39,582 nt of DNA. It comes from a virus. The notes below the pieces were generated by a model, which did not search any database, was not told where the DNA came from, and saw only the letters and a list, made by a program, of their open reading frames with translations. The stretch covers positions 1 to 39,582 of the IMG/VR virus record IMGVR_UViG_3300045950_000315. One strand, 5' to 3'. The position numbers and the translations under genes were made by a program. Position 1 is the first letter of the stretch; each line of letters opens with the position of its first letter. Positions 22,796-39,582 of the stretch are shown one piece after another.

Positions 22796-23566
22796 TTACT
22801 CAAGAATTGTACCTCCACCACGTTCCCATACCATGGCCCAGAATTGCTGGCTCCAGTCGGTCTGGTGCCCGTCCAGATACCGGGACTTGCCAAGCGCCAC
22901 ACGAAGCCGGTTGATCAGTGCCGCAAATTCCGTGTCGCTCGGGTTAGCGGCCATCCATATTCGTCCAAGTGTGAACGTCAAAATCGCATGGAACAGCGTG
23001 ATCCGCGTCGCTTTCTGGGGGTCATAGGCGCGGGGCGTCATTTCGATCAGTCCATGCCAAGACTGCTCTGGACCGCGCTGTGTTTCAGTCAAGCCATGAA
23101 GGCGGAGCTGCCATTGTGCCAAGTTGCGGCCATAGTGGGCGTAGGGCTGAACGGCTGCTGCGAACTCTCGCATGAATGTAGACCACGGCTCTTTCCAAAG
23201 TCCGACGCCGTATTGAGGCCAGACATTACTCTCCAGCCATGCTCGCAGCTTACCCGGATTTAGCTTGTCCTCTTCCCAATTGATAAGCGTGGCTTCTGCT
23301 TCTGCGTGGCCACAAACTCCGAGTTCGACGATGGCAGTCGCTTCAATACATTGCCGGGTCAGGGCAAGGGCGTTCGCATGCATGCCCTCCCGATTGGCCC
23401 GGTTTGCGAGCAACAAACTGTCTAACATGAACCAGTGCGCCAGCATCGGCGTGGATCGAACCTGAGGAGCCATTGGGAGGTCAGAAACCGATTTCGATAT
23501 CCGCTGCATAACTTGCGGAGTAGCGGTTTCACTGATCGTAAACCACTCGGGTATTGGTCGTTCCAT
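22796..23566 (-). CDS. Reversed accessory gene 3: protein of unknown function
   Basis: 256 residues, MERPIPEWFTISETATPQVM and onward. It looks soluble and largely helical; notable stretches are ALALTRQCIEATAIVELGVCGHAEAE and RITLFHAILTFTLGRIW. The helix with ANRANREGMHANALALTRQCIEA recalls helical proteins found in some abortive-infection loci, but I cannot assign a family. It sits antiparallel between tape measure (9 bases away) and the next tail gene, has lower GC than both, and has its own predicted promoter at 23619-23648. It is best read as a third moron. Confidence 0.68.
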   Translation of the reverse strand: MERPIPEWFTISETATPQVMQRISKSVSDLPMAPQVRSTPMLAHWFMLDSLLLANRANREGMHANALALTRQCIEATAIVELGVCGHAEAEATLINWEEDKLNPGKLRAWLESNVWPQYGVGLWKEPWSTFMREFAAAVQPYAHYGRNLAQWQLRLHGLTETQRGPEQSWHGLIEMTPRAYDPQKATRITLFHAILTFTLGRIWMAANPSDTEFAALINRLRVALGKSRYLDGHQTDWSQQFWAMVWERGGGTILE

Positions 23567-23707: not shown

Positions 23708-24187
23708 ATGACCGTCTCCTGGCCCACCACGCTGCCGCTGCCGACCGTGGAGGGCTACGGCATCCGCCCGGGCGAGGCGATCCTGCGCACCGAGATGGAG
23801 GCGGGACCGGCCCGGCAGCGCAAGCGCTTCACCCAGGTGCCGACCCGCATCGCGGTGCGCTGGCTGATGCGGCGCGAGCAGTTCGCCCTGTTCGAGGCCT
23901 GGTATCGCTGGCACGCCAAGGAGGGCGGCGAGTGGTTCGAGATTGATCTTCTCGGCGGCATCGGACTGGGGGTGCACGAGGCCCGCTTCACGCGCCAGTT
24001 CGAGGCGCGGCTCAAGGGCGGTGTCCTGTGGGAGATCACCTCCGAACTGGAAATCCGCGAGCGGCCGGTGCTCTCCGAGGACGCGCTGGCCATCGCTCTC
24101 GACAGCGATCTCGCGGCGCTGTTCCGCGACGTGAACGCACTCCATGCACTGATCCATTCCGGGCTGCCAGACCCCTACGCCTGGTGA
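23708..24187 (+). CDS. Minor tail protein (gpM-like position)
   Basis: 159 residues, MTVSWPTTLPLPTVEGYGIR and onward. Conserved-looking features are QRKRFTQVPTRIAVRWLMRREQFALFEAWYRWHAKEGGEWFEIDLLGG and the C-terminal ALHALIHSGLP. Proteins like this follow the tape measure in alphaproteobacterial siphoprophages. The position matches lambda gene M, a tail-tip protein. The fold cannot be seen directly. It starts 35 bases before the fibre gene. Confidence 0.7.
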   Translation: MTVSWPTTLPLPTVEGYGIRPGEAILRTEMEAGPARQRKRFTQVPTRIAVRWLMRREQFALFEAWYRWHAKEGGEWFEIDLLGGIGLGVHEARFTRQFEARLKGGVLWEITSELEIRERPVLSEDALAIALDSDLAALFRDVNALHALIHSGLPDPYAW

Positions 24188-24222: not shown

Positions 24223-25296
24223 ATGACGCTGCAAACCGACCTGCAGGCGGCGGTCGCCAAGACGACTGCCGCCGCCGACAAGCTGCACCAAGTGGTGCAC
24301 GGCGATTCCGGCAGCACCGTTGAGACCGAGAACGGCCCGGTCAAGACAGTGGCGAAGACCATCGCCGACAACGAGGCGGTCATCGCGGCCAGCCGCGTCG
24401 AGCTCGACCAGAAGGTGGCCGATGCGGGCGGCAGCGCGGTGGCGGCCGCCGCTTCCGCCGACGCGGCCTCGGCAAGCGCCGGCGAGGCGGCGATCCATGC
24501 CGCCAAGATTCCCGACCCGGCTCCAACAGATTCGCTCAAGAGCATCCGGGTCAATCTCGCTGGCACGGCCTACGAGCTGGCGCCGGGCGGGGGCGACGTC
24601 GTCGGACCCGCGGGTGCGGCGGACGGCGCGCTCGCCCGTTTCGATGGTGCGACCGGCAAGCTCTTGAAGGCCGGCGGGCCGGCCCAGACCAGCGAGATCG
24701 CAGACGGCGCCGTCACCACGGCGAAGCTTGCCGACGGGGCGGTGACGGCGGACAAAATCGCCCCCGGCGCGGTCGACCTCACGACGAGGGTCGCCAAGGC
24801 CGGCGACGCGATGACGGGCGATCTTTCGCTTCCAAACCTGATCGCGAGCGGCACCGTGCGCTCGGGCGCTGCCGGCGACGATGCCCGCTCGACCGGATTC
24901 AAGATCGCCGACGGCACGGACATCGGCGAACTCAACCGCTCGAACCAGTACTACGACGACCGGGTCAACAACTGCTCAGGCTATCTCCCCAACGGCAACT
25001 GCCTGGGCGACCCGCAGTGGACGCCGCCCGACGGCAACTGGTGGACCTGGGGGCTCGGCTTCTCCCCCGGGAACCCCAGCGGCTACGACTTCGCCGGCGG
25101 CCAGCAGGTCACCAACCAGCCGGTCTCGGTCGGCTTCGTCTACGGCTCCTACGCGCTTGCCGCCGACGAGATCGGCGGGGCCGAGCACCGGCGCAACTAC
25201 AACAACTGCAACTGCGGCGGGTTCAACTGCTACTCCAACTGCAATTGCAACTGCAATTGCGCCTGCGACTGCAACTGCGCCTGCGGCGACGGGTGA
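24223..25296 (+). CDS. Tail-fibre-like protein with Asn/Cys-rich C-terminal tail, probable radical SAM substrate
   Basis: 357 residues from ATG 24223 (GGAG about ten bases upstream). An N-terminal attachment-type region with helix (1-95) comes first. Next is a fibre part with GPAGAADGALARFDGATGKLLKAGG and short repeats (DGAVTTAKLADGAVTADKIAPGAV), then AKAGDAMTGDLSLPNLIASGTV, a common fibre motif. A Gly/Asn/Trp-rich domain follows (230-320; NNCSGYLPNGNCLG, PDGNWWTWGLGFSPGNPSGYD). The last 33 residues contain 11 Cys and 11 Asn, largely alternating. No signal peptide or cleavage site is visible. The next three genes follow closely and include two radical SAM/SPASM enzymes, so the tail is the likely substrate. 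Modification is an inference; metal binding by the Cys run is the alternative. Confidence 0.82.
   Translation: MTLQTDLQAAVAKTTAAADKLHQVVHGDSGSTVETENGPVKTVAKTIADNEAVIAASRVELDQKVADAGGSAVAAAASADAASASAGEAAIHAAKIPDPAPTDSLKSIRVNLAGTAYELAPGGGDVVGPAGAADGALARFDGATGKLLKAGGPAQTSEIADGAVTTAKLADGAVTADKIAPGAVDLTTRVAKAGDAMTGDLSLPNLIASGTVRSGAAGDDARSTGFKIADGTDIGELNRSNQYYDDRVNNCSGYLPNGNCLGDPQWTPPDGNWWTWGLGFSPGNPSGYDFAGGQQVTNQPVSVGFVYGSYALAADEIGGAEHRRNYNNCNCGGFNCYSNCNCNCNCACDCNCACGDG
25195..25293 (+). repeat. Asn-Cys repeat segment encoding the putative modified tail
   Basis: Codons 325-357 of the fibre gene. Cysteines occur at every second residue from NCNCNCNC through ACDCNCAC, after NNCNCGGFNCYS. At DNA level AACTGCAATTGC is repeated exactly in tandem (25237-25248, 25249-25260), and degenerate copies follow (GCCTGC, GACTGC, AACTGC). 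Two alternating Asn codons are used, so repeat slippage and codon drift both shaped the segment. Confidence 0.85.
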
Positions 25297-25302
25297 TCCG
25301 CC

Positions 25303-26190
25303 ATGATCGAACCGTTCAACCGGCACTTCTTCGGGCTGAAGGTGCCGCTGCTGGTCCTCGTCCTGCGCGAGGCCCGCAAGGCGAGCTTCCGCTCCTTCCG
25401 CGAGCTGCGCTCGGACGTCGAGCATGCCAATCCCGTGACCGCCGACGAGGCGAAGCGCCTGGTCGCGGCCCACGCCGCGCCATGGCCGTCGGTCCTCTAT
25501 CCGCGGCGCGCCATTCCGGGTGGACTCCTGAGCAAGCGGCTCAAGGACCGCGTCTACGAGGAGCTGGGCGGGGTCTGCCTCGACCTCGACGGCATGCTGG
25601 GCAAGGGAGAGTGGACCGACCGCGCCAACTGGGTGTTTCCGCTCGACCGCGCCGGGATTCCTCTCGCACCCTTCAACCGCTACGTGGCCTCGCGCGAGAC
25701 CAAGGCCCGCACGCCGAGGCTGCTCGCGCTCGCCGACCGCAACTGCTCGCTTCAGGTCTACGTGCCGTTCGCCTCCTGCGATCTCGACGGCTGCAGCTTC
25801 AGCATTGCGCTGCACCCGGACCACGGCCTGATCGGAAATCTCGATCCAGGCACGGAGGTCGCCTACGAGGAGGTGCTGGCGGGCGCGCAGCAGGCGTTTC
25901 CGGGCATCGCGCTTTCGACCGACACCCTCGACCTCGCGCCCGATGCTTACGCGATCGTGACCGCGAGGCTTGTGACCTCGGCCGGCAAGCCGATCCGGGA
26001 CGCGGACGCCGAGCTCTACCTGGAGCATACGGGCGGCTATCTCCCCAAGCTCCGCGTGACGACCATGGACGGGGAGGCCCGGTTTCGGGTCGGCGCGCTC
26101 GGGCTCGAACCGGGCGATTCGTTCCGGGTCAAGGCGGGCTTCCGGCACTACTCGGGCGTCGCCGAGCTCGCCTTCCGGGTGGTCGGATGA
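25303..26190 (+). CDS. Unknown protein with Ig-like C-terminal domain, in the radical SAM cluster
   Basis: 295 residues, six bases after the fibre stop and overlapping the next gene by ATGA. The N-terminal part (1-110) is basic and helical (FGLKVPLLVLVLREARKASFRSFREL). The middle (110-215) has RNCSLQVYVPFASCDLDGCSFSIAL with a Cys trio. The last 80 residues (ARLVTSAGKPIRDADAELYLEHTGGYLPKLRVTTMDGEARFRVGAL) read as a bacterial Ig-like or carboxypeptidase-regulatory beta-sandwich. It could be a virion component next to the fibre, or a partner presenting the substrate to the maturases. I do not recognise a named family. Confidence 0.65.
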   Translation: MIEPFNRHFFGLKVPLLVLVLREARKASFRSFRELRSDVEHANPVTADEAKRLVAAHAAPWPSVLYPRRAIPGGLLSKRLKDRVYEELGGVCLDLDGMLGKGEWTDRANWVFPLDRAGIPLAPFNRYVASRETKARTPRLLALADRNCSLQVYVPFASCDLDGCSFSIALHPDHGLIGNLDPGTEVAYEEVLAGAQQAFPGIALSTDTLDLAPDAYAIVTARLVTSAGKPIRDADAELYLEHTGGYLPKLRVTTMDGEARFRVGALGLEPGDSFRVKAGFRHYSGVAELAFRVVG

Positions 26191-27218
26191 CGCGTCGGCT
26201 CAACATCTTCCTCGGCTACGCCTGCAACTTCTCCTGCGGCTACTGCCTGCAGGAGATGGGCGCCCCCGACGCGGTCAGGCGCGCCCATCCCGTCGAGCCC
26301 TTCATCGAGCGGGTGGTTCCGTTCGTGAGGGAGCACGGCATCCGGCGCGTCGACTACTGGGGCGGCGAGCCGCTCCTCTATTGGGACAGGATCGCGGCGA
26401 TCCACTCGGCGTTCGTGGAAGCCGGCATCGCCTTCGACTTCGTCCGCATCACCACCAACGGCAGCCTGCTCGCGCCCGAGCACGTCGACCGGCTCAACGA
26501 GTGGGGCATGCATGTCGTCGTGAGCGATCACGGCGCCTTCGGCCAGCCCAACTGGGACATGGTGCGGCGCTTGCGCCGCTCCAGCGTGTCGTTCCTGTTC
26601 ACCGCCGAAACTCCCCGTATCTGGCCGCTGTTCGAGAAGCTGGAGCGGCTGGAGGAGAAGTACGGCCGCCCGTTCTGGCCCTACGCTCATTGGGTCCGCG
26701 CCACCCAGGGCTGCGATCCGCGCTATCGGTTCGACCACGCATCTCTCGACCGCCACGTCGAGCACCTGTGGGAGTTGGCCCGGCTCCGGCTCTCCGGTCA
26801 CCGGCATGCGCGTATCTTCTTCGACGGCCACCTCGAGGAATGGCGCGCGGGCCTCGCCCGGGCGGACGAGGACGTCGAGCCCCTGTGCCACGGCCATGAC
26901 CATCTCTCGGTCGACCTCGCCGGCAACCGCTACGCCTGCCACCACGGAGTGAAGACCGGCTATCGCACCGGGCATCTGTTCGACGGCTTAGGTCCCCGTG
27001 ACGGGGCCGAGCGGGTGGCGCTCGACCGTGCCTGGCGCTGGGTGCGGAGCGAGGACTGCCGCGCCTGCCCGATCCGGAGTTGGTGCCGGGGCAACTGCCA
27101 TCTCTCGCAAACCCACGAGATCGACTGCCGGCTCTCGCGCGAGAAGCACCGCGTGTTCGCGTGGCTGGATTCGCGGGAGAACGGTCCCTCCGACCGCAAT
27201 CGTATCGAGGTCCCCTGA
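26187..27218 (+). CDS. Radical SAM/SPASM maturase 1
   Basis: 343 residues from ATG 26187. The radical SAM cluster motif CX3CX2C is CNFSCGYC (Cys13, 17, 20) near the N-terminus, and the SAM-binding YWGGEP is at 57-62. The C-terminal SPASM set is complete: Cys234-X11-G-X4-Cys251, then Cys291-X2-Cys294-X5-Cys300-X3-Cys304, and Cys314. Those cysteines bind two auxiliary 4Fe-4S clusters in enzymes that install thioether or C-C links in peptides (AlbA, PqqE, anaerobic sulfatase maturase types). No peptide-binding RRE domain is obvious. Three bases separate it from the second maturase. Confidence 0.9.
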   Translation: MTRRLNIFLGYACNFSCGYCLQEMGAPDAVRRAHPVEPFIERVVPFVREHGIRRVDYWGGEPLLYWDRIAAIHSAFVEAGIAFDFVRITTNGSLLAPEHVDRLNEWGMHVVVSDHGAFGQPNWDMVRRLRRSSVSFLFTAETPRIWPLFEKLERLEEKYGRPFWPYAHWVRATQGCDPRYRFDHASLDRHVEHLWELARLRLSGHRHARIFFDGHLEEWRAGLARADEDVEPLCHGHDHLSVDLAGNRYACHHGVKTGYRTGHLFDGLGPRDGAERVALDRAWRWVRSEDCRACPIRSWCRGNCHLSQTHEIDCRLSREKHRVFAWLDSRENGPSDRNRIEVP

Positions 27219-27221
27219 TCC

Positions 27222-28628
27222 ATGTCGGAAACGCTGGAATACCGGCTCGCCATGGCGGGCCGGAACGGATACGTGCGCCATCTCCTCTACCGGCCGCACG
27301 TCTCGGAGCTGGTCTGGGAGGACACGGGCGAGCGCGTGAGCCTCGCCGCCGTCGGCATGGACTACGCTTCGAACCAGCGCGATTGGAAGCCGGCGTTCCC
27401 GGTCTCGCCCGCGAACCCGGCGCACAAGAGCCGGAACGTCCGCGTCCTCAAGATCCAGATGGGGCTCAAGTGCAACTATGCCTGCGCCTATTGCAACCAG
27501 GCGAGCCAGCCGCATGAGGTGCAAGGCGGGATCGAGGACGTGCGCGCGTTCCTGAAGAGGCTCCCCGAGTGGTTCGATAGCGGCGAGCGGGGCGACGGCA
27601 AGGGCGTGCGCATCGAGTTCTGGGGCGGCGAACCCTTCGTCTACTGGAAGGCGCTCAAGCTGCTCGGAAGCGCGCTCCGCAACGCCTATCCCAAGGCCGA
27701 GTTCAACATCGTCACCAACGGCTCTCTGATCGACGACGAGAAGATCGACTGGCTGGACGCCCTCGGCTTCGGCGTCGGCGTCAGCCACGACGGACCGGGC
27801 CACAAGACGGCGCGCGGGCCCGATCCGCTCGAAGACCCGGTCCGCCGCGCCGCCATCCGCAGGCTCTACGACCGGCTGTTCCCGAAAGGACGCATCGGCT
27901 TCAACTGTGTGCTCACGCGCGACAACCGCTCGCTGGTGGCGATCCGGGAGCACATCGGCGCCCGGCTCGGCATCGATCCCGCCAACGTGCCGCTGACGTC
28001 CGAGGAGCTGCTGCTCCCCTACGACGCGGGCGGCATGGCGTTGTCGCCCAAGACATCCGAGGACCACGACCGAGTCCTGCAGGAGGTCTGGTGGGAGGCG
28101 GTGACGGGCCGCTCCATGCCGGTCGGCGCGGTGCGACGCAAGTGCGAGGACTTCTTCCGCTCGCTGGCCGAATCCCGGCCCTCGGCCTCCCTCGGCCAGA
28201 AATGCGGCATGGACCGGCCCGAGCACCTGGCCGTCGATCTCAAGGGCAACGCGCTCACCTGCCAGAACACCAGCGCCGCGACCAGGCACCGCATCGGCTC
28301 CGTATATGGCGCTCAGCGCGCGCAAGACCGCCGCGAGGCGTTCGAGGACATCCGGCTTACGACCGCGCATCACTGGTCGACGCGCGAGGAATGCGTCCGC
28401 TGTCCCGTCGTCCAGCTCTGCAAGGGGGCCTGCCTGTTCCTCGAAGGCGATCTCTGGCGGCAGGCCTGCGACAACAGCTTCACCTGGAACCTCGCCCTGC
28501 TCGCGATCTCGCTCTACTGGCTCACGCGCCTCGTGCTGGTCGAGATCGAGGGCCCGATCATGCGCCGTCCCGATCTTCCCAACCGTATCCCCGTCATTCG
28601 CCAGCCGGCCGAACAAGCCGCTGTCTGA
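27222..28628 (+). CDS. Radical SAM/SPASM maturase 2
   Basis: 468 residues. An N-terminal extension of about 75 residues (YRLAMAGRNGYVRHLLYRPH..., WKPAFPVSPANPAHKS) precedes the radical SAM motif CNYACAYC (Cys84, 88, 91) and FWGGEP (133-138). The C-terminal SPASM cysteines are 328, 347, 391, 394, 400, 404 and 416, with the classical CX2CX5CX3C centre (CVRCPVVQLCKGAC). A hydrophobic helix follows (NLALLAISLYWLTRLVLV). It is clearly divergent from maturase 1, so the two probably catalyse different steps or modify different residues. The extension could be a substrate-recognition domain. Confidence 0.9.
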   Translation: MSETLEYRLAMAGRNGYVRHLLYRPHVSELVWEDTGERVSLAAVGMDYASNQRDWKPAFPVSPANPAHKSRNVRVLKIQMGLKCNYACAYCNQASQPHEVQGGIEDVRAFLKRLPEWFDSGERGDGKGVRIEFWGGEPFVYWKALKLLGSALRNAYPKAEFNIVTNGSLIDDEKIDWLDALGFGVGVSHDGPGHKTARGPDPLEDPVRRAAIRRLYDRLFPKGRIGFNCVLTRDNRSLVAIREHIGARLGIDPANVPLTSEELLLPYDAGGMALSPKTSEDHDRVLQEVWWEAVTGRSMPVGAVRRKCEDFFRSLAESRPSASLGQKCGMDRPEHLAVDLKGNALTCQNTSAATRHRIGSVYGAQRAQDRREAFEDIRLTTAHHWSTREECVRCPVVQLCKGACLFLEGDLWRQACDNSFTWNLALLAISLYWLTRLVLVEIEGPIMRRPDLPNRIPVIRQPAEQAAV

Positions 28629-28634
28629 CCTCCC

Positions 28635-29258
28635 ATGCCCGATCCCGCTCTTTCGGCGGCCATCCGCGAGGCCTACGCCTCCGCGCCGGCCGACGTCATC
28701 GTCCTGCATACCCTGGAAATCTGGCACCCGGCCTTCGTCGAGGAGGGCGTCGCCAGGCCGATCCGGGTGGTGCGCAACTTCGAGGACACCGCCACCTGGC
28801 TGTCCTTGGGCGGAGCCGAGGTGCAGGCCGTGCTGGGCGGGCTCGATGCGGAGGCTCGCCGCAAGGTCGGGCTGGTGGCGCGGCTGGAGGGGGCTGCGCC
28901 GCGCGATGCCGGGTTGCTGGTCCCCTTCGTGGCGCTCGGCTTCGATCTGGAACTGCCGCCCGTCGACACCATCCCGGTGCCGGAGATCGTCGTCACGTTG
29001 GACAACGTCGGCCGCGAGATCGCGAAGCATCTCGACGCCGCGGCCGTCAGCCAGGAGCGCATCGAGGTCATGTACAGGCCCTACCTCTCGACCGACATCG
29101 AGGGGCCGCAGATGGACCCGCCCATGACCATGACGCTCTCCGAGGTCGAGGTGGATGTCTTCCGCGTCACCGGCCGGGCGCGCGTGCTCGACATCGGCAA
29201 CAAGGCGTTCCCGAGCGAGATCTACACCACCCGGAAATATCCCGGACTGCGGCGATGA
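28635..29258 (+). CDS. DUF1833 family tail protein
   Basis: 207 residues, MPDPALSAAIREAYASAPADVIVLHTLEIWHPAF and onward, a pattern I recognise as DUF1833. It occurs in siphoprophage tail tips next to the NlpC-type gene, the place of lambda gene L. The rest (LVPFVALGFDLELPPVDTIPVPEIVVTLDNV) is beta-rich. It overlaps the next start (ATGA at 29255-29258), so transcription continues from the radical SAM genes into ordinary tail genes. Confidence 0.82.
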   Translation: MPDPALSAAIREAYASAPADVIVLHTLEIWHPAFVEEGVARPIRVVRNFEDTATWLSLGGAEVQAVLGGLDAEARRKVGLVARLEGAAPRDAGLLVPFVALGFDLELPPVDTIPVPEIVVTLDNVGREIAKHLDAAAVSQERIEVMYRPYLSTDIEGPQMDPPMTMTLSEVEVDVFRVTGRARVLDIGNKAFPSEIYTTRKYPGLRR

Positions 29259-29668
29259 ACTCCCTTCACTGGGCATCCGCCTACATCGGCCTCCCTTGGG
29301 CGGCCGACGGAGAATGGCCGGACTCGTTCCACTGCTGGGCGCTGGTGCGACACGTGCAGCGCGAGCGGTTCGGGCGCGAGCTGCCCGCCATCCCCAACCC
29401 CGACGACCTGCTCGCCATTGCGCGGTCCTTCCGCGACCACCCGGAGCGCCGGCGCTGGGACCTGATCGAGACGCCTCAGGAAGGCGACTGCGTGCTGATG
29501 CGCCAGGCCCGCTACCCGGTTCATGTGGGCGTCTGGATGGACGTCGACGGAGGTAAGGTGCTGCACGTCGTGCGCGACAAGGGCGTGGTCGCCCAGTCGC
29601 GTGAAAGTCTCGCCGCCCACGGCTGGCGGATCGAAGGTTATTACCGTTTCATCGGAGACGACGGATGA
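29255..29668 (+). CDS. NlpC/P60-like tail tip peptidase (lambda gpK-like)
   Basis: 137 residues. The catalytic cysteine is probably Cys27 in SFHCWALVRHVQRERFG, with His90 in YPVHVGVWM and possibly His104 completing the site. The length fits a single NlpC/P60 domain without the JAB domain found in lambda K. Such tail-tip enzymes cut peptidoglycan during entry. It overlaps both neighbours by four bases. Confidence 0.82.
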   Translation: MNSLHWASAYIGLPWAADGEWPDSFHCWALVRHVQRERFGRELPAIPNPDDLLAIARSFRDHPERRRWDLIETPQEGDCVLMRQARYPVHVGVWMDVDGGKVLHVVRDKGVVAQSRESLAAHGWRIEGYYRFIGDDG

Positions 29669-32007
29669 ACCGCCCCGGAGTCGTGGTGCTGGTCCGCAAC
29701 GCCTTCCGGCCCGAGCGGGACCGAGAGGTGGTGCCGGTGCCCGAGCCGGCCACCATCCGGGACTGGCTCGATGACCGTGGCATCGGGGAGTTCCACCAGC
29801 CCACCGTCTGTCTGGTCAACGGCCGGGCCGTGCTGCGCGCCGAATGGCCGCTGCTGGTCATCCGTTCCGGCGACGTGGTCTGCTTCGTGGCGCTTCCCCA
29901 TGGTGGCGGCGGAGGCGGGGGCGGCGGCAAGAACCCGCTCCGCACCGTGCTCATGGTCGCCGTCATGGTGGCGGGCGTGGTCGCCGGGGCCGCTCTGGGC
30001 GGAGCGCTCGCGGGCGCGCTCGGCTTCGAGGCCGGCGCGGCGGCCTTCGGTTCCGTCACCTGGGGCCAGATCTTCGGTGGCGTGATCTCGGGCGCGGTCA
30101 ACATCGCGGGCGGCGCCCTGATCAACGCGCTTGTTCCGGCGCCAAGCCCATCGCGGCCCTCTGCCGATTGGGGCCTGGGGAGCATCGGCAGCCCGCCGAG
30201 CCCGAGCCCGACCTATTCGCTCCAGGCCCAGGGCAACCAGGCACGCCTGGGCCAGCCCATCCCGGTGGTCTACGGCCGCCACCTGATCTATCCCGACCTC
30301 GCCGCCGAGCCCTGGCAGGAGTACCAGGGCAACGAGCAGTACCTGCACCAGCTCCACGTCATCGGCCAGGGCCACTACCAGATCGAGGCGATCCGCATCG
30401 AGGACACGGACATCGGCAACTTCGCCGAGGTCCAGTACGAGATCGTCGAGCCGGGCGGCGCCGTTGCCCTGTTCGATCCTTCCGTCACCACCGCGCCCGA
30501 GGTGGCCGGGCAGGAGCTGCAGGGCCCGAACCAGCTTGGCGCCGGCGAGACGGGCTGGGTGGGGCCGTTCGTCTCGGCTTCCGCCGAGACTAAGGCCAAC
30601 CATCTCGGCATCGACATCGTCTTCGCCCGCGGCCTCTACTACGCCAACGATGCTGGCGGCCTCGACAGCCGATCGGCGAACTGGGTAGTCGAGGTCCGCG
30701 CCATCGACGACGACGGCCTGCCTCTGGGCGACTGGTTGCAGCTGGCGGCGGAGACTCACTCGGCCGCCACCAACACGCCGATCCGTCTCAGTTTCAAGTA
30801 CGCGGTCGCGCCGGGGCGCTACGAGGTGCGGCTCAAGCGCACCGACGACAAGGACCTGTCGTCCCGCGCCGGCCACGAGATTCGCTGGGCGGGGCTCAAG
30901 GCCTGGCTCCAGGACGAGCCCGACTATGGGCAGGTGACGCTGCTCGCGATCCGCATGCGGGCCACCGACAATCTCTCCCAGCGCACCTCGCGCATGGTCA
31001 ACTGCATCGTGACGCGCAAGCTGCCGGTCTGGTCCCTAGGCGGATGGTCGGCCCCGCAGCCGACCCGCTCCATCGCCTGGATCCTCGCCGACGTGGCCCG
31101 CGCCAGCTACGGCGCGGGGCTGGCGGATTCGCGCATCGACCTTGCCGGTCTCGCGGCCCTGGACGCGCTGTGGGAGCAGCGGGGCGACCGCTTCGACGGC
31201 GTCTTCGACACGAGCATGACGGTGTGGGAGGCGCTGACTCGCATCGCCCGCTGCGGCCGCGCCGTGCCCATCCAGCAGGGGGGCGTGGTGCGGGTGATCC
31301 GCGACAGCCCGCAGAGTCTGCCGGTGGCCCTGTTCGGGCCACGCAACATCGCGCGCGGTTCCTTCCGCATCCGCTACGTCATGCCGGGCGAGGAGACGGC
31401 GGATGCGGTGACCGTCGAGTTCTTCTCCGCCGTCACTTGGCGGCCAGACGAGGTGACCGCCAAGCTTCCGGACTCCGCCGAGGAGAAGCCGGCCCGGCTT
31501 CAGCTGATCGGCTGCACGGACAAGGACCACGCCGGGCGCGAGGGCCTCTACATGGCCGCCGCCAACCGCTACCGGCGCCGGCTGATCTCGTTCCAGACCG
31601 AACTCGAGGGCCTGATCCCCACCTATGGCGATCTCATTGCCGTCGTCCACGACATGCCTCGCTGGGGCCAGGGCGGCGAGATCGTCGGCTGGGACGGGGC
31701 GACGCTCGCCACCTCCGAGCCGCTCGAATGGGCGGAAGGACAGACGCACTACATCGCGCTCCGCCGTCCCGACGGCTCCATCGCCGGGCCGTATCCGGTG
31801 CTGCCGGGGGAAACGCCCTGGCATGCGACACCCCAATCGCCCCTCGATATCGAGCCCTATCTCGGCGGCGAAGCCGAACGCACCCACTACGCCTTTGGCC
31901 CCTCGGACGCCTGGAGCCTGTTCGCCCGCGTGCTCGCCATCCGACCACGCGGAGAGCGGGTCGAAATCGCGTGCGTCGGCGAGCACGACGCGGTGCACGT
32001 GAACTGA
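29665..32007 (+). CDS. Tail tip host-specificity protein, gpJ-like with gpI-like N-terminus
   Basis: 780 residues. The first 75 residues resemble a ubiquitin/MoaD-like domain (VVVLVRNAFRPERDREVV...GRAVLRAEWPLLVIRSGDVVCFVALP). A nine-glycine run (80-88) and a long Ala/Gly hydrophobic segment follow (VLMVAVMVAGVVAGAALGGALAGALG), as in lambda gpI. The J-type part then begins: GNQARLGQPIPVVYGRHLIYPDLAAEPW ... WILADVARASYGAGL ... VVRVIRD. It lacks the long fibronectin and receptor-binding extension of lambda J, so host binding may rest on the fibre encoded at 24223. Confidence 0.88.
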   Translation: MNRPGVVVLVRNAFRPERDREVVPVPEPATIRDWLDDRGIGEFHQPTVCLVNGRAVLRAEWPLLVIRSGDVVCFVALPHGGGGGGGGGKNPLRTVLMVAVMVAGVVAGAALGGALAGALGFEAGAAAFGSVTWGQIFGGVISGAVNIAGGALINALVPAPSPSRPSADWGLGSIGSPPSPSPTYSLQAQGNQARLGQPIPVVYGRHLIYPDLAAEPWQEYQGNEQYLHQLHVIGQGHYQIEAIRIEDTDIGNFAEVQYEIVEPGGAVALFDPSVTTAPEVAGQELQGPNQLGAGETGWVGPFVSASAETKANHLGIDIVFARGLYYANDAGGLDSRSANWVVEVRAIDDDGLPLGDWLQLAAETHSAATNTPIRLSFKYAVAPGRYEVRLKRTDDKDLSSRAGHEIRWAGLKAWLQDEPDYGQVTLLAIRMRATDNLSQRTSRMVNCIVTRKLPVWSLGGWSAPQPTRSIAWILADVARASYGAGLADSRIDLAGLAALDALWEQRGDRFDGVFDTSMTVWEALTRIARCGRAVPIQQGGVVRVIRDSPQSLPVALFGPRNIARGSFRIRYVMPGEETADAVTVEFFSAVTWRPDEVTAKLPDSAEEKPARLQLIGCTDKDHAGREGLYMAAANRYRRRLISFQTELEGLIPTYGDLIAVVHDMPRWGQGGEIVGWDGATLATSEPLEWAEGQTHYIALRRPDGSIAGPYPVLPGETPWHATPQSPLDIEPYLGGEAERTHYAFGPSDAWSLFARVLAIRPRGERVEIACVGEHDAVHVN

Positions 32008-33469: not shown

Positions 33470-36466
33470 TTAACCAGGTTTCTTCGCCGTATGGGCGCTG
33501 TTGAGAACGTCCTCGACTGAGCGTGCCACGATGTACTCGGCCGGCGATGCGCTCACGCGCAAGGCATTGAAGTGCGCCCTGCCACAGGCGATTTTCGCGC
33601 CTTCGCGGTCGCGTAGGTCGTCGACGAACAAGCTGCTCTTCGTCTCCACGACAAAATAAAGCCGCTCGCCGGCATCGGTCTGAATGAGCACCGCCCAGTC
33701 CGGATTATAGCTGCCCAGCGGCGTGGGAACTGTAAACCAGCCGGGAAGCTTGGCGTAGACCTTGACAGCTTCATTCTTCTCCAGCCCGTCCGCAAAGGTG
33801 GCCTCGGTATCGGAGTCGTAAACCACCTGCTCGTAGACCGATTTCTTCGTCTCGGCGAGCATGTTCTTCAGATAGCCGGTCAGTTCCTCCCGCTCGAACA
33901 GCTCCTGCGCGTAGTAATACTCGTCGCCCAGGCGTTGGTATTTAATACCGTCCACCACGGCGAGCCGTTTGCAGCGGGTGATCGCCTCGGCGGCCAGTTC
34001 GATGAACTGCTGTGGGTTGCGCTTGAAGTCGTCGATCCGCCCGCTGCCAACGAGGACGCGGTGGATGGTGCGGCGCGTGAGCTGCGTGCGGTCCTGCAGG
34101 TCGGTGAGCAGGTCAGGGAGCTCAATATCGGACTCGTCAAGCAGAACGGTCGCCGCTCCCTCGCGCTCCGTAGCCTCCACACCCGCCTTGCCGATGGCGA
34201 TTTCAGCCTTGCGCCATTGCAGGCGCGTCTTGACGATGGGCGGCGCATCTTTCAAAGCACGGATGCAGCTCTCGATCAGCTTCTCGTTGTCGAACTTCAC
34301 CCTGTATGTGGTCTTGTGCTTGATGCGGTCCCACAGCGCTTTGAACTCGGGGCTGAGCAGCACTTCCTTGCGGACTCGCACCTGCTGGCGCTCGTCGGCG
34401 TTCTTGATCTCCAACCGGCCGGAGAGCTTGCGGAGAATATCGGCGATCTGGCCGAGCTGCCCCTTGAACGGTTCGGGGACGGTAAGCGTCCCATCTTTCA
34501 GTGCCTTCCTCAATGAGTCCTGCACCTTCCCCTTGGCGTCGATGTGGCCCGCCGCCTTGAGGTGCTCCCACAGCACCTTCGATTGCTCAAAGCCTAGCGG
34601 CGCTGCCTTGCCGTCCTCGCCCGTCACGGCGATCGCGGCGAACTGGTGCGCCTCCACAATGCCGAAGCGGATGCCGGTGTCGGCCTCGATTTCCTTCTGC
34701 AGGTTCTCGGCGAATTGCTCGAAGCGTTCGGTGGCGATGACCGTGAGCGTGTTGACCTCGAAGCCGCGTCGCCGCTCGCCGTTCTGGTTGACGCACAACC
34801 GCAGTCCGCGGCCGATGGTCTGCCGTCGCTCGCGTTCGGTCCGAATATCGCGCAGAGTGCAAATCTGAAAGACGTTCGGATTGTCCCAGCCCTCCTTTAG
34901 GGCCGAGTGGGAAAAAATAAACTTGAGCGGGGTCTCGAAACTCAGGAGCTTTTCCTTCTCCTTCATGATCAGGTTGTAGGCCCGCTCCGCGTTGTCGCGG
35001 TTGGCCTGGGTATTGTCCTCGGTGTCGGTCCAGCCCCCCTTCTTATCGATCGAGAAGTAGCCGTTGTGGACGTCCTCAGCTGCGCGGTCGAGGTCCACTT
35101 CCTGGAATAGGGTGTGGTAGTCCGGGTGTTTGGCCAGCCGCCGATACTCCTCCTCGAAGACACGGGCGTAATCGCCCTTCACTTGGTTGCCATCGGCGTC
35201 GTACTGACGGTACTTCGCCACCTCGTCGATAAAGAATAGCGAGAGCACCTTGATACCCTGCGGACGCAGGCGCTTCTCCTTGTCGAGATGCTCTTTGATG
35301 GTGCGGCGGATCATCTCGCGCTGGACCGCCAAAGCATCCACATCGCCCCAGGCCTGGCCCGGCTTCAGGTAGTGTTCGCCGCCGGGCACACGCAGCTCCA
35401 TGAATTCGCCACCTTTTCCGACGCGGATTTCGCCGATCCGACAGTCGCGGTAGATCGCGCGCTTGGCGGTTTGCTCCAGGTCGTCCCCGTCCTGAACCGT
35501 CATCTCCTGCCGCCGCACCTCACCGGCTATGTCCACATCCAGTTCCACCCTGGCGGAAATGCTGCCGCGCTTGTTGGCGACCGAGACAAGCCGCACGTAA
35601 GGCTTGTTGTGTGCGTCTTCCACCGTGGCCGATGCGACTTCGATCTGTTTGACCAGCCTCCTCTCGTAGGCGTCCACAGCGTCGAGCCGGTAGACCATGT
35701 GGTGCTTGTCGACGTGGGTGGCCGAGTAGCGCAGAGTGCAGAGCGGGTTCATGGTGTCGAGGGCCGTCTTGCCGGCACCGGTCAGGCCACCGTCGACGCT
35801 TTGCGGCTCGTCCACGATCACGATCGGCCGGGTCGCCTTGATCAGGTCGATGGGCTTCTCGCCGCCGGTCTTCTCGCTATCCTTGTAGAGGTTGTTGACG
35901 TCCTTCTTGTTGATGGCGCCGACCGTCACCACCATCACCTGAATGTGCGGGCTGGTGGCGAAGTTGCGCACCTGACCGAGCTTCGACGAATCGTAAAGGA
36001 AGTAATCGAAGGGTGTGCCGGCATAGAGTCCCTTGAAATGGTCCTCGGTGATCTGAAGTGTCTTGTAGACGCCCTCCTTGATCGCCACCGATGGCACCAC
36101 GATGACGAACTTGGTGAATCCGAAACGCTTGTTCAATTCGAAGATACTGCGCAGGTAGACGTAAGTCTTGCCCGTTCCGGTCTCCATCTCCACCGTGAAG
36201 TCGCCCGAGGCCAATGACTCCGAAGGCGGCAGACCGTTGCGAAGCTGGATAGCATTGAGGTTCTTCTGGACCTCATCGTCGAGCAGCGTCAGCCGGTTAC
36301 CGATGCCGAGGTCGCTTTCGGCGAAGGCCAGCGCATGTTGGGCACTCAGTGCGTCACGGGTGACCGTGAATTCCGTCCGGCAAATTTCCTGCCCACGGAA
36401 CAGGTCACAGACCGCCTCGATGGCCTGGAGCTGGAAGTCAAGGTTGGGTTCGAAGTGGAGTTTCAT
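33470..36466 (-). CDS. res: Type III restriction enzyme, Res subunit
   Basis: 998 residues, the normal Res length. Helicase motifs: Walker A METGTGKTY (94-102), DEPQ box in IVIVDEPQS (215-223), FSHSALKEGWDNPNVFQ, and motif VI QTIGRGLRL. The C-terminal PD-ExK nuclease is intact: Pro922-Asp923 in YNPDWAV and Glu941-Thr-Lys943 in VVETKSS. With Mod it hydrolyses ATP and cuts DNA carrying two inversely oriented unmodified sites. It is separated from mod by a PLD-type gene. It is convergent with the phage late genes; whether it is phage cargo or host DNA cannot be told from the sequence. Confidence 0.95.
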   Translation of the reverse strand: MKLHFEPNLDFQLQAIEAVCDLFRGQEICRTEFTVTRDALSAQHALAFAESDLGIGNRLTLLDDEVQKNLNAIQLRNGLPPSESLASGDFTVEMETGTGKTYVYLRSIFELNKRFGFTKFVIVVPSVAIKEGVYKTLQITEDHFKGLYAGTPFDYFLYDSSKLGQVRNFATSPHIQVMVVTVGAINKKDVNNLYKDSEKTGGEKPIDLIKATRPIVIVDEPQSVDGGLTGAGKTALDTMNPLCTLRYSATHVDKHHMVYRLDAVDAYERRLVKQIEVASATVEDAHNKPYVRLVSVANKRGSISARVELDVDIAGEVRRQEMTVQDGDDLEQTAKRAIYRDCRIGEIRVGKGGEFMELRVPGGEHYLKPGQAWGDVDALAVQREMIRRTIKEHLDKEKRLRPQGIKVLSLFFIDEVAKYRQYDADGNQVKGDYARVFEEEYRRLAKHPDYHTLFQEVDLDRAAEDVHNGYFSIDKKGGWTDTEDNTQANRDNAERAYNLIMKEKEKLLSFETPLKFIFSHSALKEGWDNPNVFQICTLRDIRTERERRQTIGRGLRLCVNQNGERRRGFEVNTLTVIATERFEQFAENLQKEIEADTGIRFGIVEAHQFAAIAVTGEDGKAAPLGFEQSKVLWEHLKAAGHIDAKGKVQDSLRKALKDGTLTVPEPFKGQLGQIADILRKLSGRLEIKNADERQQVRVRKEVLLSPEFKALWDRIKHKTTYRVKFDNEKLIESCIRALKDAPPIVKTRLQWRKAEIAIGKAGVEATEREGAATVLLDESDIELPDLLTDLQDRTQLTRRTIHRVLVGSGRIDDFKRNPQQFIELAAEAITRCKRLAVVDGIKYQRLGDEYYYAQELFEREELTGYLKNMLAETKKSVYEQVVYDSDTEATFADGLEKNEAVKVYAKLPGWFTVPTPLGSYNPDWAVLIQTDAGERLYFVVETKSSLFVDDLRDREGAKIACGRAHFNALRVSASPAEYIVARSVEDVLNSAHTAKKPG

Positions 36467-36503
36467 AAGGTATTCATCTCATCGATAATTTGCCGTAGAT
36501 ATG

Positions 36504-37580
36504 TTAATACCAACCGTAGGATCGGGTCGACGTTCTACCCCACGTTCCCAGCGCAGCAGAACGACCAACGATTTCGCTCGCGTCGGCTCCCGGCTTGAGA
36601 AGCCGTATTCGCAACGGCGCGCCGCCTGGCGGACCCTGTTCAACAATTGCGAGCCCATCTTTATGCGCTCGTGCCCACGCCACTCCAGGGACCTCGTTTG
36701 GAACATTGAAGCGAAACATGCCGTTGTGTTTGTAGAACTTGTACTGCATAGAACGCGTGTTCCCATCATCAGGGCAGTAGACGTCGATTCGTCCATCCGC
36801 CTGAACGTGGGCGCGAATTAGCTGACTGACGACCTTGCCCGCGTTTCTCGGGAACTCAACCTGAAAGCGATACTCACCGGTAAACGACTGAAGCCCTGCC
36901 CACGCGGCAGCAGCGAAGTCAGCACGGAGTGCCGGCCGGGCAGGAGGCTTCTGCCTCTGTAGATCAATCGGCTTGGACGGAACAGGCCGCGAATCGTTGA
37001 TCCCTAAATCGGTCAATTCGGATATTGTTCTGCGTCGCGTATGCTCAGCAAATCTTGCGGCGTAGTGGCGGAGTTCAGCATCGGTCGCTGGAACGGCAGA
37101 GTTCCACAGCTCTGCAAAAGCGTCCGAAGCTGATACCAGACAGCCTTCGGCGTCTGCCACGAGACCACACTCAACATTCTTGCTCAATCCGCCGATTGTA
37201 AGGTTTGAGGAGCCGACGTACATTGAGCACAATTTTCGGATTGTCCCGTTTCGGGAAAATTTCTGACCGGCCACGATAAGCTTCGGATGGAATATCCCTA
37301 CAAGGGGCCTTCCTAGGCGAATACTCCAGCCTTGGTCTCGCGCCGTATATAGCGCTTCCGGGTGAGTAACGGCGTTGTCGGTTCCGGCGATCAGTCGACA
37401 CTCTGGGTTTCCGCATCGCCGCAAAATCTCAATAACTCGTTGCACTCCTTCGACGGATACAAAGGCTGCAGCGATTCCGACGACACGCGGCCGCTCGCGG
37501 ACAAATGATAAGCGCAGCATGTCCCCATGTTGTCTATCCCCAGCGCCGCTCAGTACGATTTGCTGTGTCATCTGTTCCAC
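36504..37580 (-). CDS. PLD-family (HKD) nuclease-like protein within the type III operon
   Basis: 358 residues from GTG 37580; an ATG at 37571 is nearly as good. The PLD half-site is His98-X-Lys100 in IFHPKLIV, then GSSNLT (123-128) and Glu137 in NVECGL, as in BfiI/NgoFVII-type restriction nucleases that dimerise to form one active site. The C-terminal half (230-358; RFQVEFPRNAGKVVSQLIRAHVQADGRIDVYCPDDG) may bind DNA. Gaps of 94 and 37 bases separate it from mod and res on the same strand, so co-transcription is likely. Its base composition is more A/T-rich than res and mod. It could be an accessory nuclease or an inserted defence gene. Confidence 0.8.
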   Translation of the reverse strand: MEQMTQQIVLSGAGDRQHGDMLRLSFVRERPRVVGIAAAFVSVEGVQRVIEILRRCGNPECRLIAGTDNAVTHPEALYTARDQGWSIRLGRPLVGIFHPKLIVAGQKFSRNGTIRKLCSMYVGSSNLTIGGLSKNVECGLVADAEGCLVSASDAFAELWNSAVPATDAELRHYAARFAEHTRRRTISELTDLGINDSRPVPSKPIDLQRQKPPARPALRADFAAAAWAGLQSFTGEYRFQVEFPRNAGKVVSQLIRAHVQADGRIDVYCPDDGNTRSMQYKFYKHNGMFRFNVPNEVPGVAWARAHKDGLAIVEQGPPGGAPLRIRLLKPGADASEIVGRSAALGTWGRTSTRSYGWY

Positions 37581-37674
37581 TCTCTCGCGCGCTGTGGCAC
37601 GCAGTCAGAGTCTGAGGTATAGGGGCGATCACGGGCCACCGGCCGCGTCCCAGCAGATTCATCGTCGTTCCTCA

Positions 37675-39582
37675 TTACAGACTCCGCAGGATGACGAGTC
37701 CGTACTGCTGCAGAATTGCCACAAGGTTGGTCTTAACCACGTCGTCGGCGAAGGCGCTGTCGCGAAAAACGCAGGTAGTATCGCCTGCTGGTGCGAGGGC
37801 CTTGTGCCACTCGACAATGCCTAACGCGAGCGGTTCGACATGGTCGCGGACGATCTTCTCGGCTAGGCAGGCGATCAGAACACCGCCGCCGATGCTATAT
37901 ACGATCTTGCCGGCAATAGCCTTCTTTTCGATGGGAACGCAGAGGTCGAGACCGAGCTTGAGTAGAAGCTCATAAAGGATGTCCGCCTCGGTGCGGTCGG
38001 TTTTCAGGTGCTCTACGGAGGCTTCGAGCGTCTGCGCGAGGTTGTCGCGGTCCGGCTCCCACGCCCGGATGTTGCTTGAGGCAAGCTTGAAAACGCGAAA
38101 GCCGAGGTCGCCGGCAAACATCGGGCTTTCGTCCTTGACCTTCTCTCCGGCGCGGCGGAGGCGCTCCTTGGTCAGCTCAGCAATGTTGCGAGGCTTGCCG
38201 ATTTTGTCGCAGAAGTCGGCGGCAGCCTTCTGCCCAGTGTCTTGTGGGTCAAGCGACTCTGGTAGTTGCACCAGTATGTATCTCCGGTTCCCACTATCCG
38301 CTGCGTTCTGCTTCATGACGGCGTGTGCGGTCGTTCCGGTGCCCGCGAAAAAGTCCATCACAATGCCTTCGCCGTCGTCCCCATGTTCGAGCATGCGCTG
38401 AATCAATAGTGTTGGCTTCGGGGTATCGAACACTTTCTCGCCGAATAGCTCCTTAATCTCCCTGTTCGCCTGATCTGTGTGACTCGCATACTCATGCGTC
38501 CACAGGTTGATAGGGGTCATCCCCTGCCGCACTTCCGACAGGAACGTCTTGATGTCTGGCACATCGCGAGTGCCATCTTTCCCCCAATACAGTCGACCTT
38601 CCGCCAAGAGGGTCTCGAAGACTTTCCGTTCGTAGCGCCAGGCTTTCCGCTCAGGGTTGACCACCTTGCCCGTTTTCGGATTTATTATTGGATAGCACAA
38701 GTTCGGACGGCGCTCAGGCGCGACTTGGTTCAAAAATGGCGTCGCTTTCCATGGACCTCGCGGGTCATTGTCCGGATTAGTAAAGCGAGCGTTGGCTGCG
38801 TCATCGCGCTTCAATAGATTCACAGCGAAGGCATCGCTCTTCTGATAAATACAGACATGATCAATGACGGACGTGAAGTCGTCAGTGTTGTTGCTCCGTG
38901 TGTATCGTTTCTGCCACTCTACCTGAGCCACGAAGTTCTCTTCGCCGAAGATATCGTCGAGCAACATCCGTAGTCGAGGTAATTCACCGTCATCAATCGT
39001 GATGAAAACGGCCCCGTCTTTTCTGAGCAACGCACGCGCAACCTTTAGCCTCGGATACATCATGTTAAGCCAGTCTGTGTGGAAGCGACCGGAGGATTCG
39101 GTGTTTGAACTGATCTTCTTTCCTCCTTCTACCTGCCCAGTCAACTCTAGATAGTTCTTTATGCTGTCCTTGAAGTTGTCCGGGTAGATGAAGTCCTTTC
39201 CAGTGTTGTAGGGCGGGTCAATGTAGATAAGCTTGATCTTGCCGGCATAGCTCTTCTGCAAGAGCTTCAGCACTTCGAGGTTGTCGCCCTCGATCATCAG
39301 GTTCTGGGTCGTGTCCCAATCGACGCTGTCCTCCGGACAAGGGCGGAGCGTTCCGGTCGAGGGCATGAGGGCGAGCTGGCGGGCGTCGCGCTTGCCATGC
39401 CAGGTGAGGCCATATTTCTCCGCTCGCTCGTCCACGGCGCTACCGAGAAGCTGTTTGAGCACCTCGAAGTCCACCTTTCCCTCGGTGAAGGCTTCCGGGA
39501 ACAGCGCCTTGAGTTGCTCGACGCTCTCGGCAAGGACGTCGGCGCTTCGGGTCTCGGGATCGGCGGCGGAAAGCTTCTTCAT
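37675..39582 (-). CDS. mod: Type III DNA methyltransferase, Mod subunit
   Basis: 635 residues; the ATG is exactly at the right edge of the window, and MKKLSAADPETRSADVLAESVEQLKALFPEA is a normal Mod N-terminus. Catalytic DPPYNTGKDF starts at residue 122, and the SAM-binding box DFFAGTGTTAHAV lies at about 410-422, giving beta-class order. The variable region between (200-370) is the target recognition domain. Members methylate adenine on one strand of an asymmetric site. The C-terminus (YSIGGGVLIACLAEK, CVFRDSAFADDVVKTNL) is typical and complete. The promoter lies outside the window. Confidence 0.95.
   Translation of the reverse strand: MKKLSAADPETRSADVLAESVEQLKALFPEAFTEGKVDFEVLKQLLGSAVDERAEKYGLTWHGKRDARQLALMPSTGTLRPCPEDSVDWDTTQNLMIEGDNLEVLKLLQKSYAGKIKLIYIDPPYNTGKDFIYPDNFKDSIKNYLELTGQVEGGKKISSNTESSGRFHTDWLNMMYPRLKVARALLRKDGAVFITIDDGELPRLRMLLDDIFGEENFVAQVEWQKRYTRSNNTDDFTSVIDHVCIYQKSDAFAVNLLKRDDAANARFTNPDNDPRGPWKATPFLNQVAPERRPNLCYPIINPKTGKVVNPERKAWRYERKVFETLLAEGRLYWGKDGTRDVPDIKTFLSEVRQGMTPINLWTHEYASHTDQANREIKELFGEKVFDTPKPTLLIQRMLEHGDDGEGIVMDFFAGTGTTAHAVMKQNAADSGNRRYILVQLPESLDPQDTGQKAAADFCDKIGKPRNIAELTKERLRRAGEKVKDESPMFAGDLGFRVFKLASSNIRAWEPDRDNLAQTLEASVEHLKTDRTEADILYELLLKLGLDLCVPIEKKAIAGKIVYSIGGGVLIACLAEKIVRDHVEPLALGIVEWHKALAPAGDTTCVFRDSAFADDVVKTNLVAILQQYGLVILRSL

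Follow-up and report, generated by a model that had tools for sequence, protein, structure and literature searches.

Described SPASM maturases and the fiber cassette

To our knowledge, radical S-adenosylmethionine (SAM) enzymes are known to mature small peptides and a handful of enzymes, and not virus particles. Here we analyze a 39,582-nucleotide stretch of viral DNA (positions 1 to 39,582 of IMG/VR record IMGVR_UViG_3300045950_000315; hereafter the window), in whose tail operon four consecutive genes, P0001-P0002-P0003-P0004, form a cassette encoding a tail-fiber-like protein with a C-terminal Asn/Cys tract, a conserved partner protein and two radical SAM/SPASM enzymes (A and B). On balance, this cassette probably represents phage-encoded maturation of a tail-fiber tip, with thioether cross-linking as the favored chemistry.

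Among the closest described systems are the ranthipeptide and sactipeptide maturases (CteB/thermocellin, AlbA, SkfB and PapB), in which, as here, a SPASM enzyme adjoins a Cys-rich substrate; AlbA has seven SPASM Cys, as does the cassette enzyme, and CteB has the same single Cys at the first SPASM position and the nearest fold in the PDB. Unlike these systems, the cassette would act on the C-terminus of a phage tail fiber, and it has no short precursor, no helices resembling a recognition element (RRE) of ribosomally synthesized and post-translationally modified peptides (RiPPs), no transporter and no protease. QhpD, the quinohemoprotein amine dehydrogenase maturase, cross-links Cys to Asp/Glu carbons within a working protein, not a peptide product; both cassette enzymes have its model (TIGR03906) among their highest-scoring NCBIfam matches (57.4 and 50.7 bits, where the cut-off is 453), and its substrate and setting are unrelated. 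The anaerobic sulfatase-maturating enzyme (anSME) anSMEcpe resembles the cassette enzyme in fold and full-length sequence, and differs in one extra auxiliary-cluster Cys and in its substrate motif. Proteusins, such as polytheonamide, have an alternating Asn-rich core that is tailored by the epimerase PoyD and a 2-oxoglutarate (2OG) oxygenase; the likeness lies in that core and in the joint presence of radical SAM and 2OG-Fe(II) enzymes in many relatives of the cassette, which, unlike proteusins, lacks a Nif11/NHLP leader and spare Cys for epimerase chemistry.

The isolated Achromobacter phages JWF and 2-1 share the arrangement of the window. The JWF enzyme, a "radical SAM domain-containing protein" of phrog_1802, belongs to the same enzyme family and stands in the same gene order (fiber, middle protein, enzyme); it is filed under "other", with the fiber link unrecorded, and JWF differs from the window in that it carries a Hint domain and one enzyme only, and P0002 could not be detected in it. 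The cassette matches no described kind known to us, and it lacks the short precursor, RRE and exporter of RiPP gene clusters: its putative substrate is a fiber of 357 residues, its neighbors are tail genes, and no exporter is encoded within it.

The Asn/Cys tract and its pairing with the enzymes

The last 33 residues of P0001 (NYNNCNCGGFNCYSNCNCNCNCACDCNCACGDG) contain 11 Cys and 10 Asn, as the earlier note on this DNA had described; the chance of at least 11 Cys in 33 residues is 3.5e-14 (binomial, with a background of 1.1% Cys in eight other proteins of the window). For identical tract peptides, AAC/AAT and TGC/TGT codons are intermixed across loci, so it is the protein sequence of the tract that is conserved, not a DNA microsatellite, and a DNA repeat artifact is ruled out. 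Spacer residues across 156 unique tracts are Asn (66%), Ala (19%) and Asp (10%), Asn and Asp together making up 76%, with otherwise almost no bulky or charged residue, and the repeat number spans 3 to 11.

Searches from enzyme B or A through viral and genome collections and two annotated phage records yielded 166 loci whose flanks reach at least 4 kb upstream of enzyme B and 1 kb beyond it. A tract was scored there when a same-strand gene ended in an Asn-containing (xC)3 or longer, or carried the same directly ahead of a Hint domain. An (Asn/Ala/Asp-Cys)n tract was found in 147 of these 166 loci, on the same strand and upstream of the enzyme every time; it was present in 53 of 53 loci of the closest viral set, and in 80 of 93 clusters when enzymes were clustered at 80% identity and hand-found variant tracts were counted. 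Case-by-case inspection of tail-less loci revealed seven with variant tracts missed by the strict pattern (e.g., GGYCSYCSYCTCACSDCSC in Magnetospirillum). A second set, blind to the enzyme, was seeded with a DNA pattern for C-x-[ST]-N-C-N-C-N-C and required at least 6 kb downstream. A same-strand enzyme accompanied 31 of the 36 C-terminal tracts among the matches listed, the true total being larger, and the five enzyme-less matches were short or internal open reading frames (ORFs) unlike tail genes, which look spurious. When the fiber domain preceding the tract served as the seed, tract and enzyme were both present in 25/25 loci with enough flank, and in viral contigs this domain occurred only together with them. 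The three sets overlap in some contigs and are independent by method, not by sequence. An opposite-strand control was not clean (8/53, 9/65 and 8/48 loci), since Cys/Ser repeats also appear when the tract is read in antisense. The co-occurrence of Cys-rich tails and enzymes in other phages, which had been predicted from the window alone, is thus strongly supported from three seeds, and among phages the enzymes were not regularly found without a Cys-rich fiber. Cassettes were also located in contigs of Limnohabitans, Burkholderiaceae, Rhodospirillaceae, Magnetospirillum, Roseobacteraceae, Bradyrhizobium and others, several with recognizable tail genes, which fits prophages; some of these contigs are metagenome bins, for which the host assignment may be wrong. 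Carriers among non-pathogenic isolates include Limnohabitans and Thalassobacter stenotrophicus CECT 5294.

The bodies that carry the tract fall into at least ten groups without detectable similarity to each other, a low estimate since grouping was by single linkage, and a single enzyme is accompanied by three tract proteins at three loci (L138, L175 and L292) and by two at four others (L100, L149, L246 and L279). Because the tract is shared across such unrelated bodies and several tract proteins can occur per enzyme, it is very probably the substrate; because bodies and intervening genes vary, tract and enzyme B emerge as the constant pair. For the body of P0001 itself, searches of isolated phages gave short, weak matches at most. 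At two further loci (L091:3054-10408 and L122:243-5585), three to four radical SAM genes lie close to a small tract protein (HIFFDDYSTACNCNCNCNCTRGIL), and at three (L196:2-937, L378:7001-7646 and L342:8290-9177) another C-terminal stretch with Cys (SVICTELYSQGYM... or SKIICAKLY...) comes after the tract, perhaps as a follower of a third type.

P0002 has homologues in 126 of the 166 loci, mostly right after the tract gene. Its AlphaFold2 model is of high confidence (predicted local distance difference test, pLDDT, 95.6), and its C-terminal part (about residues 201–295), an Ig-like beta-sandwich, is the sole part with a fold match in the PDB, the N-terminal part having no PDB-like fold by Foldseek; full-length fold matches are uncharacterized phage proteins, and no match was found in Pfam, NCBIfam, PHROGs or PDB sequences. 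CxC-rich peptides in other proteins bind metals, and the tract could accordingly be a metal- or disulfide-binding tip, with the enzymes modifying P0002, which is conserved too, or another tail protein. We regard this as improbable: no partner of the enzyme is as constant as the tract, bodies and intervening genes vary, and P0002 is missing from 23 tract-plus-enzyme loci, including JWF. The same absence rules out P0002 as the sole substrate.

Proposed enzyme chemistry and processing of the tract

Both enzymes contain a CX3CX2C motif and seven SPASM Cys, in agreement with the earlier note (enzyme A: C13/17/20 and C234, 251, 291, 294, 300, 304 and 314; enzyme B: C84/88/91 and C328, 347, 391, 394, 400, 404 and 416), and both exceed the model cut-offs for PF04055 Radical_SAM (42.6 and 36.0 bits for A and B against 29.5) and TIGR04085 SPASM (37.2 and 34.6 bits against 27). 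Across 32 diverse members, enzyme B has exactly ten invariant Cys, of which three serve the SAM cluster and seven lie in SPASM, and no spare conserved Cys outside the cluster motifs. Its AlphaFold2 model (pLDDT 90.8) has CteB (5why) as top PDB match, followed by ChlB and anSMEcpe. No RRE domain was found at the enzyme N-termini: the enzyme B model has three strands and no helix ahead of the core, and enzyme A starts at the core. A Viperin-like defense enzyme was ruled out, the match being confined to the shared core, and Campylobacter CP220-like phages were set aside as relatives, since their radical SAM match comprises the core alone and the gene context differs.

The position and number of Cys bear on which reaction is catalyzed. 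AlbA uses seven Cys for two auxiliary clusters, auxiliary cluster I of CteB has an open site where a substrate Cys binds, and in anSME both auxiliary clusters are fully ligated (PMC6231123). By alignment, the enzyme B family has one Cys at the first SPASM position, like CteB, where anSMEcpe has two. Oxidation of tract Cys to formylglycine (or another oxidized Cys) by an anSME-like reaction, yielding aldehydes that would bond host-surface amines or cross-link fibers, would agree with the full-length sequence match of enzyme B to anSMEcpe (E about 1e-15), with the fold, and with the deposition of the JWF relative as "anaerobic sulfatase-maturating enzyme". We nonetheless judge it unlikely, as the second Cys at the first SPASM position and the full cluster ligation that characterize anSME are at odds with the single Cys seen here and in CteB. 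Moreover, the recognition motifs of anSME, CxPxR and CxAxR, are absent from the tract. With the first-position Cys missing as in CteB, and with CteB as the nearest predicted fold, the cysteine pattern and model favor thioether over formylglycine formation; for a thioether as the actual product, we put the chances at about even.

The strict two-residue alternation of the Asn-rich tract also recalls polytheonamide-type proteusins, in which case every other residue would be epimerized to the D form and the tail tip would carry a beta-helical needle of alternating D- and L-residues. Many cassettes have 2OG-Fe(II) oxygenases reminiscent of proteusin tailoring, and the epimerase EpeE, including C223A mutants, is among the fold matches of enzyme B. 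In the known peptide epimerases, however, hydrogen is donated by a free Cys, and the lack of any conserved Cys in enzyme B beyond its ten cluster ligands argues against such chemistry; EpeE also ranked below CteB and anSME, and the constant residue of the tract is Cys, the variable one Asn. We therefore hold epimerization to be doubtful.

Under the thioether reading, the fiber would be synthesized with its C-terminal (Asn/Ala/Asp-Cys)n tract, which the SPASM enzyme or enzymes encoded just downstream would process in the host cytoplasm, before or during assembly. In each turn, a 5'-deoxyadenosyl radical would abstract hydrogen at an acceptor residue, the beta-carbon of Asn or Asp being the likeliest site, and a tract Cys near auxiliary cluster I would then bond to it as a thioether, the outcome being a compact, redox-stable and protease-resistant knot with which to contact a receptor or penetrate the surface. 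No RRE domain is visible in enzyme B, so recognition would be by the fiber itself, probably through the conserved domain ahead of the tract and/or P0002; the proposal that the fiber acts as a built-in leader fits the conservation of that domain in sequence. That P0001 is part of the virion and that its modification benefits the phage are both inferred.

The genes between tract and enzyme vary. In 93 of 147 tract loci, 2OG-Fe(II) oxygenases (PF13759, PF13640 and a third family, counted by position and a His/Asp motif alone) lie between the genes for the tract fiber and the radical SAM enzyme (examples are L209:4747-6798, L232:6369-6992 and L248:6294-7001). A second radical SAM enzyme is present in 14 of the 147, 13 of them without an oxygenase; at cluster level, all seven second-enzyme clusters lack one (Fisher p 0.01 at 80% clustering and 0.05 at 70%). 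Oxygenases thus occupy, in many relatives, the place that enzyme A has in the window, and in others the end may be trimmed by Hint.

In JWF and 2-1 the tract is followed directly by C-F-P-A-G-T, with which a Hint domain begins (PF05203, 47.5 and 46.6 bits, cut-off 32.1). Cleavage at the Hint Cys of JWF would leave a tip ending in ...NCDCNCNCS. Like junctions, whose Pfam scores mostly fall below threshold, were found in Rhodospirillaceae, Burkholderia paludis and viral contigs. A Hint domain directly follows the fiber Asn-Cys tract at L003:5712-7160, L004:5790-7229, L218, L219, L235 and L324; P0002 is usually absent at Hint loci, and one locus flagged by pattern alone (L350) is probably not Hint. 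The earlier note had envisaged a modified fiber that undergoes no cleavage, which does not hold in general, as in these phages and other relatives the tract passes into a self-splicing domain. The proteolysis implied by Hint, together with the frequent service of SPASM enzymes to bacteriocins, might suggest that the tract is cargo, an antibacterial RiPP-like peptide released from the fiber, and not a structural tip. This appears very improbable: Hint lies after the tract, so that cleavage would probably remove the follower and keep the tract on the fiber, no transporter was seen in the cassette, and most loci have no Hint.

Several observations weigh against a cross-linked fiber tip. The case for it is built from gene content, conservation, co-occurrence, cysteine pattern and predicted folds. 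Resemblance to SPASM enzymes fixes neither regiochemistry nor reaction type, Foldseek TM-scores to CteB and anSME are alike (0.5–0.65), and no NCBIfam equivalog cut-off was approached (best maturase match 69.4 bits against 518.7). Neither oxygenases nor P0003-like enzymes are universal, and the final product may differ among phages. Several tract proteins have no recognized tail-fiber match, and "fiber" is there a reading of gene position. Finally, 17 of the 166 enzyme relatives have neither a recognizable tract nor P0002. In a quick, unfinished tree, most tract-less relatives fall into two small clades of bacterial genome contigs (Bacteriovorax-type and Variovorax/Ramlibacter-type), the others being scattered, and they may be cousins acting on other substrates. 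Tract-less relatives (L273:4355-6688, L267:4264-6729, L227 and L257) lie beside an uncharacterized protein of ~780–820 residues in Variovorax/Ramlibacter or a second radical SAM-like protein in Bacteriovorax.

Genomic setting and significance

The window contains a lambda-like structural operon (portal, protease, tail terminator, tape measure, minor tail proteins, NlpC/P60 and a J-like tip protein), and the cassette has same-strand flanks of tape measure, phrog_384, DUF1833, NlpC/P60 and J-like tail genes, as identified by Pfam and PHROG profiles (Table 1). As in a phage tail fiber module, the fiber-like protein thus lies within the tail operon. Coordinates and spacing agree with those first reported: 6 bases separate the fiber gene from P0002, P0002 and enzyme A overlap by 4, 3 bases separate enzymes A and B, and 6 more precede the DUF1833 gene. 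The shared orientation of the flanks holds for the tail genes, and fails for one upstream ORF on the opposite strand (22796-23566, minus), a 256-residue frame inside the tail operon that is possibly an inserted moron gene and had no match in Pfam, PHROG or PADLOC.

Table 1. Coordinates of cassette features and adjoining tail genes in the window
Feature	Position	Strand	Basis
Upstream virion protein, phrog_384	23708..24187	+	E 4.3e-39; places cassette inside tail operon
Tail-fiber-like protein P0001, 357 residues, proposed substrate	24223..25296	+	PHROG tail fiber families, best E 2e-7
Conserved fiber domain of ~103 residues preceding tract (GFKIADGTDIGELNR...), candidate built-in recognition element	24895..25203	+	With tract and enzyme in 25/25 loci
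C-terminal Asn/Cys tract, 11 Cys/33 residues	25195..25293	+	Homologous tracts in 147/166 enzyme-seeded loci
P0002, conserved partner protein, Ig-like beta-sandwich at C-terminus	25303..26190	+	Homologues in 126/166 loci
Radical SAM/SPASM enzyme A (P0003), accessory, without N-terminal domain	26187..27218	+	PF04055 and TIGR04085 above cut-off
CX3CX2C cluster motif, enzyme A (C13, C17, C20)	26223..26246	+	Motif in translation
Radical SAM/SPASM enzyme B (P0004), core enzyme, phrog_1802 family	27222..28628	+	phrog_1802 E 4.8e-53
CX3CX2C cluster motif, enzyme B (C84, C88, C91), invariant	27471..27494	+	Family alignment
SPASM domain, enzyme B, seven invariant Cys (C328-C416)	28203..28469	+	Family alignment
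Downstream DUF1833 minor tail protein (lambda gpL-like position)	28635..29258	+	PF08875 142.7 bits
Downstream J-like tail tip protein	29665..32007	+	phrog_469 E 1.2e-153, phrog_31 E 7.9e-114

Elsewhere in the window, a fusion of ParB-like and DNA methyltransferase protein (phrog_498, E 1.1e-149) is encoded at 3024-5630, and a Type III restriction-modification pair at 33470-39582 on the minus strand, comprising REase_III (998 residues, 1382.9 bits) and MTase_III (635 residues, at the window edge, 758 bits), between which sits an uncharacterized protein of 358 residues.

The enzyme class and the logic of a SPASM enzyme plus a Cys-rich peptide are already known, and what is new is a putative virus-encoded, multi-enzyme modification cassette for a virion fiber tip. 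New here are also P0002 as a common partner, 2OG-Fe(II) oxygenases in the cassette and tracts running into Hint. We found no link between radical SAM enzymes and phage fibers or virion maturation in the open-access literature, an absence that is not proof, and we know of no earlier description of viruses remodeling the tips of their own particles. More broadly, we lean toward a widespread class of tailed phages in which unrelated fibers bear a portable (Asn/Ala/Asp-Cys)n tag and a dedicated modification line (a core SPASM enzyme and P0002, with an optional second radical SAM enzyme or 2OG-Fe(II) oxygenases and an optional Hint) would produce a covalently modified, probably cross-linked tip. 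The cultured phages JWF and 2-1 carry the system, which is thereby open to testing now. If true, hundreds of viral genes now filed under "other" would gain a function, the tract would offer a peptide tag that is natural and portable and comes with dedicated enzymes, and viruses would be placing non-canonical chemistry where the particle meets its host, with bearing on receptor recognition, particle stability and penetration of the cell surface.

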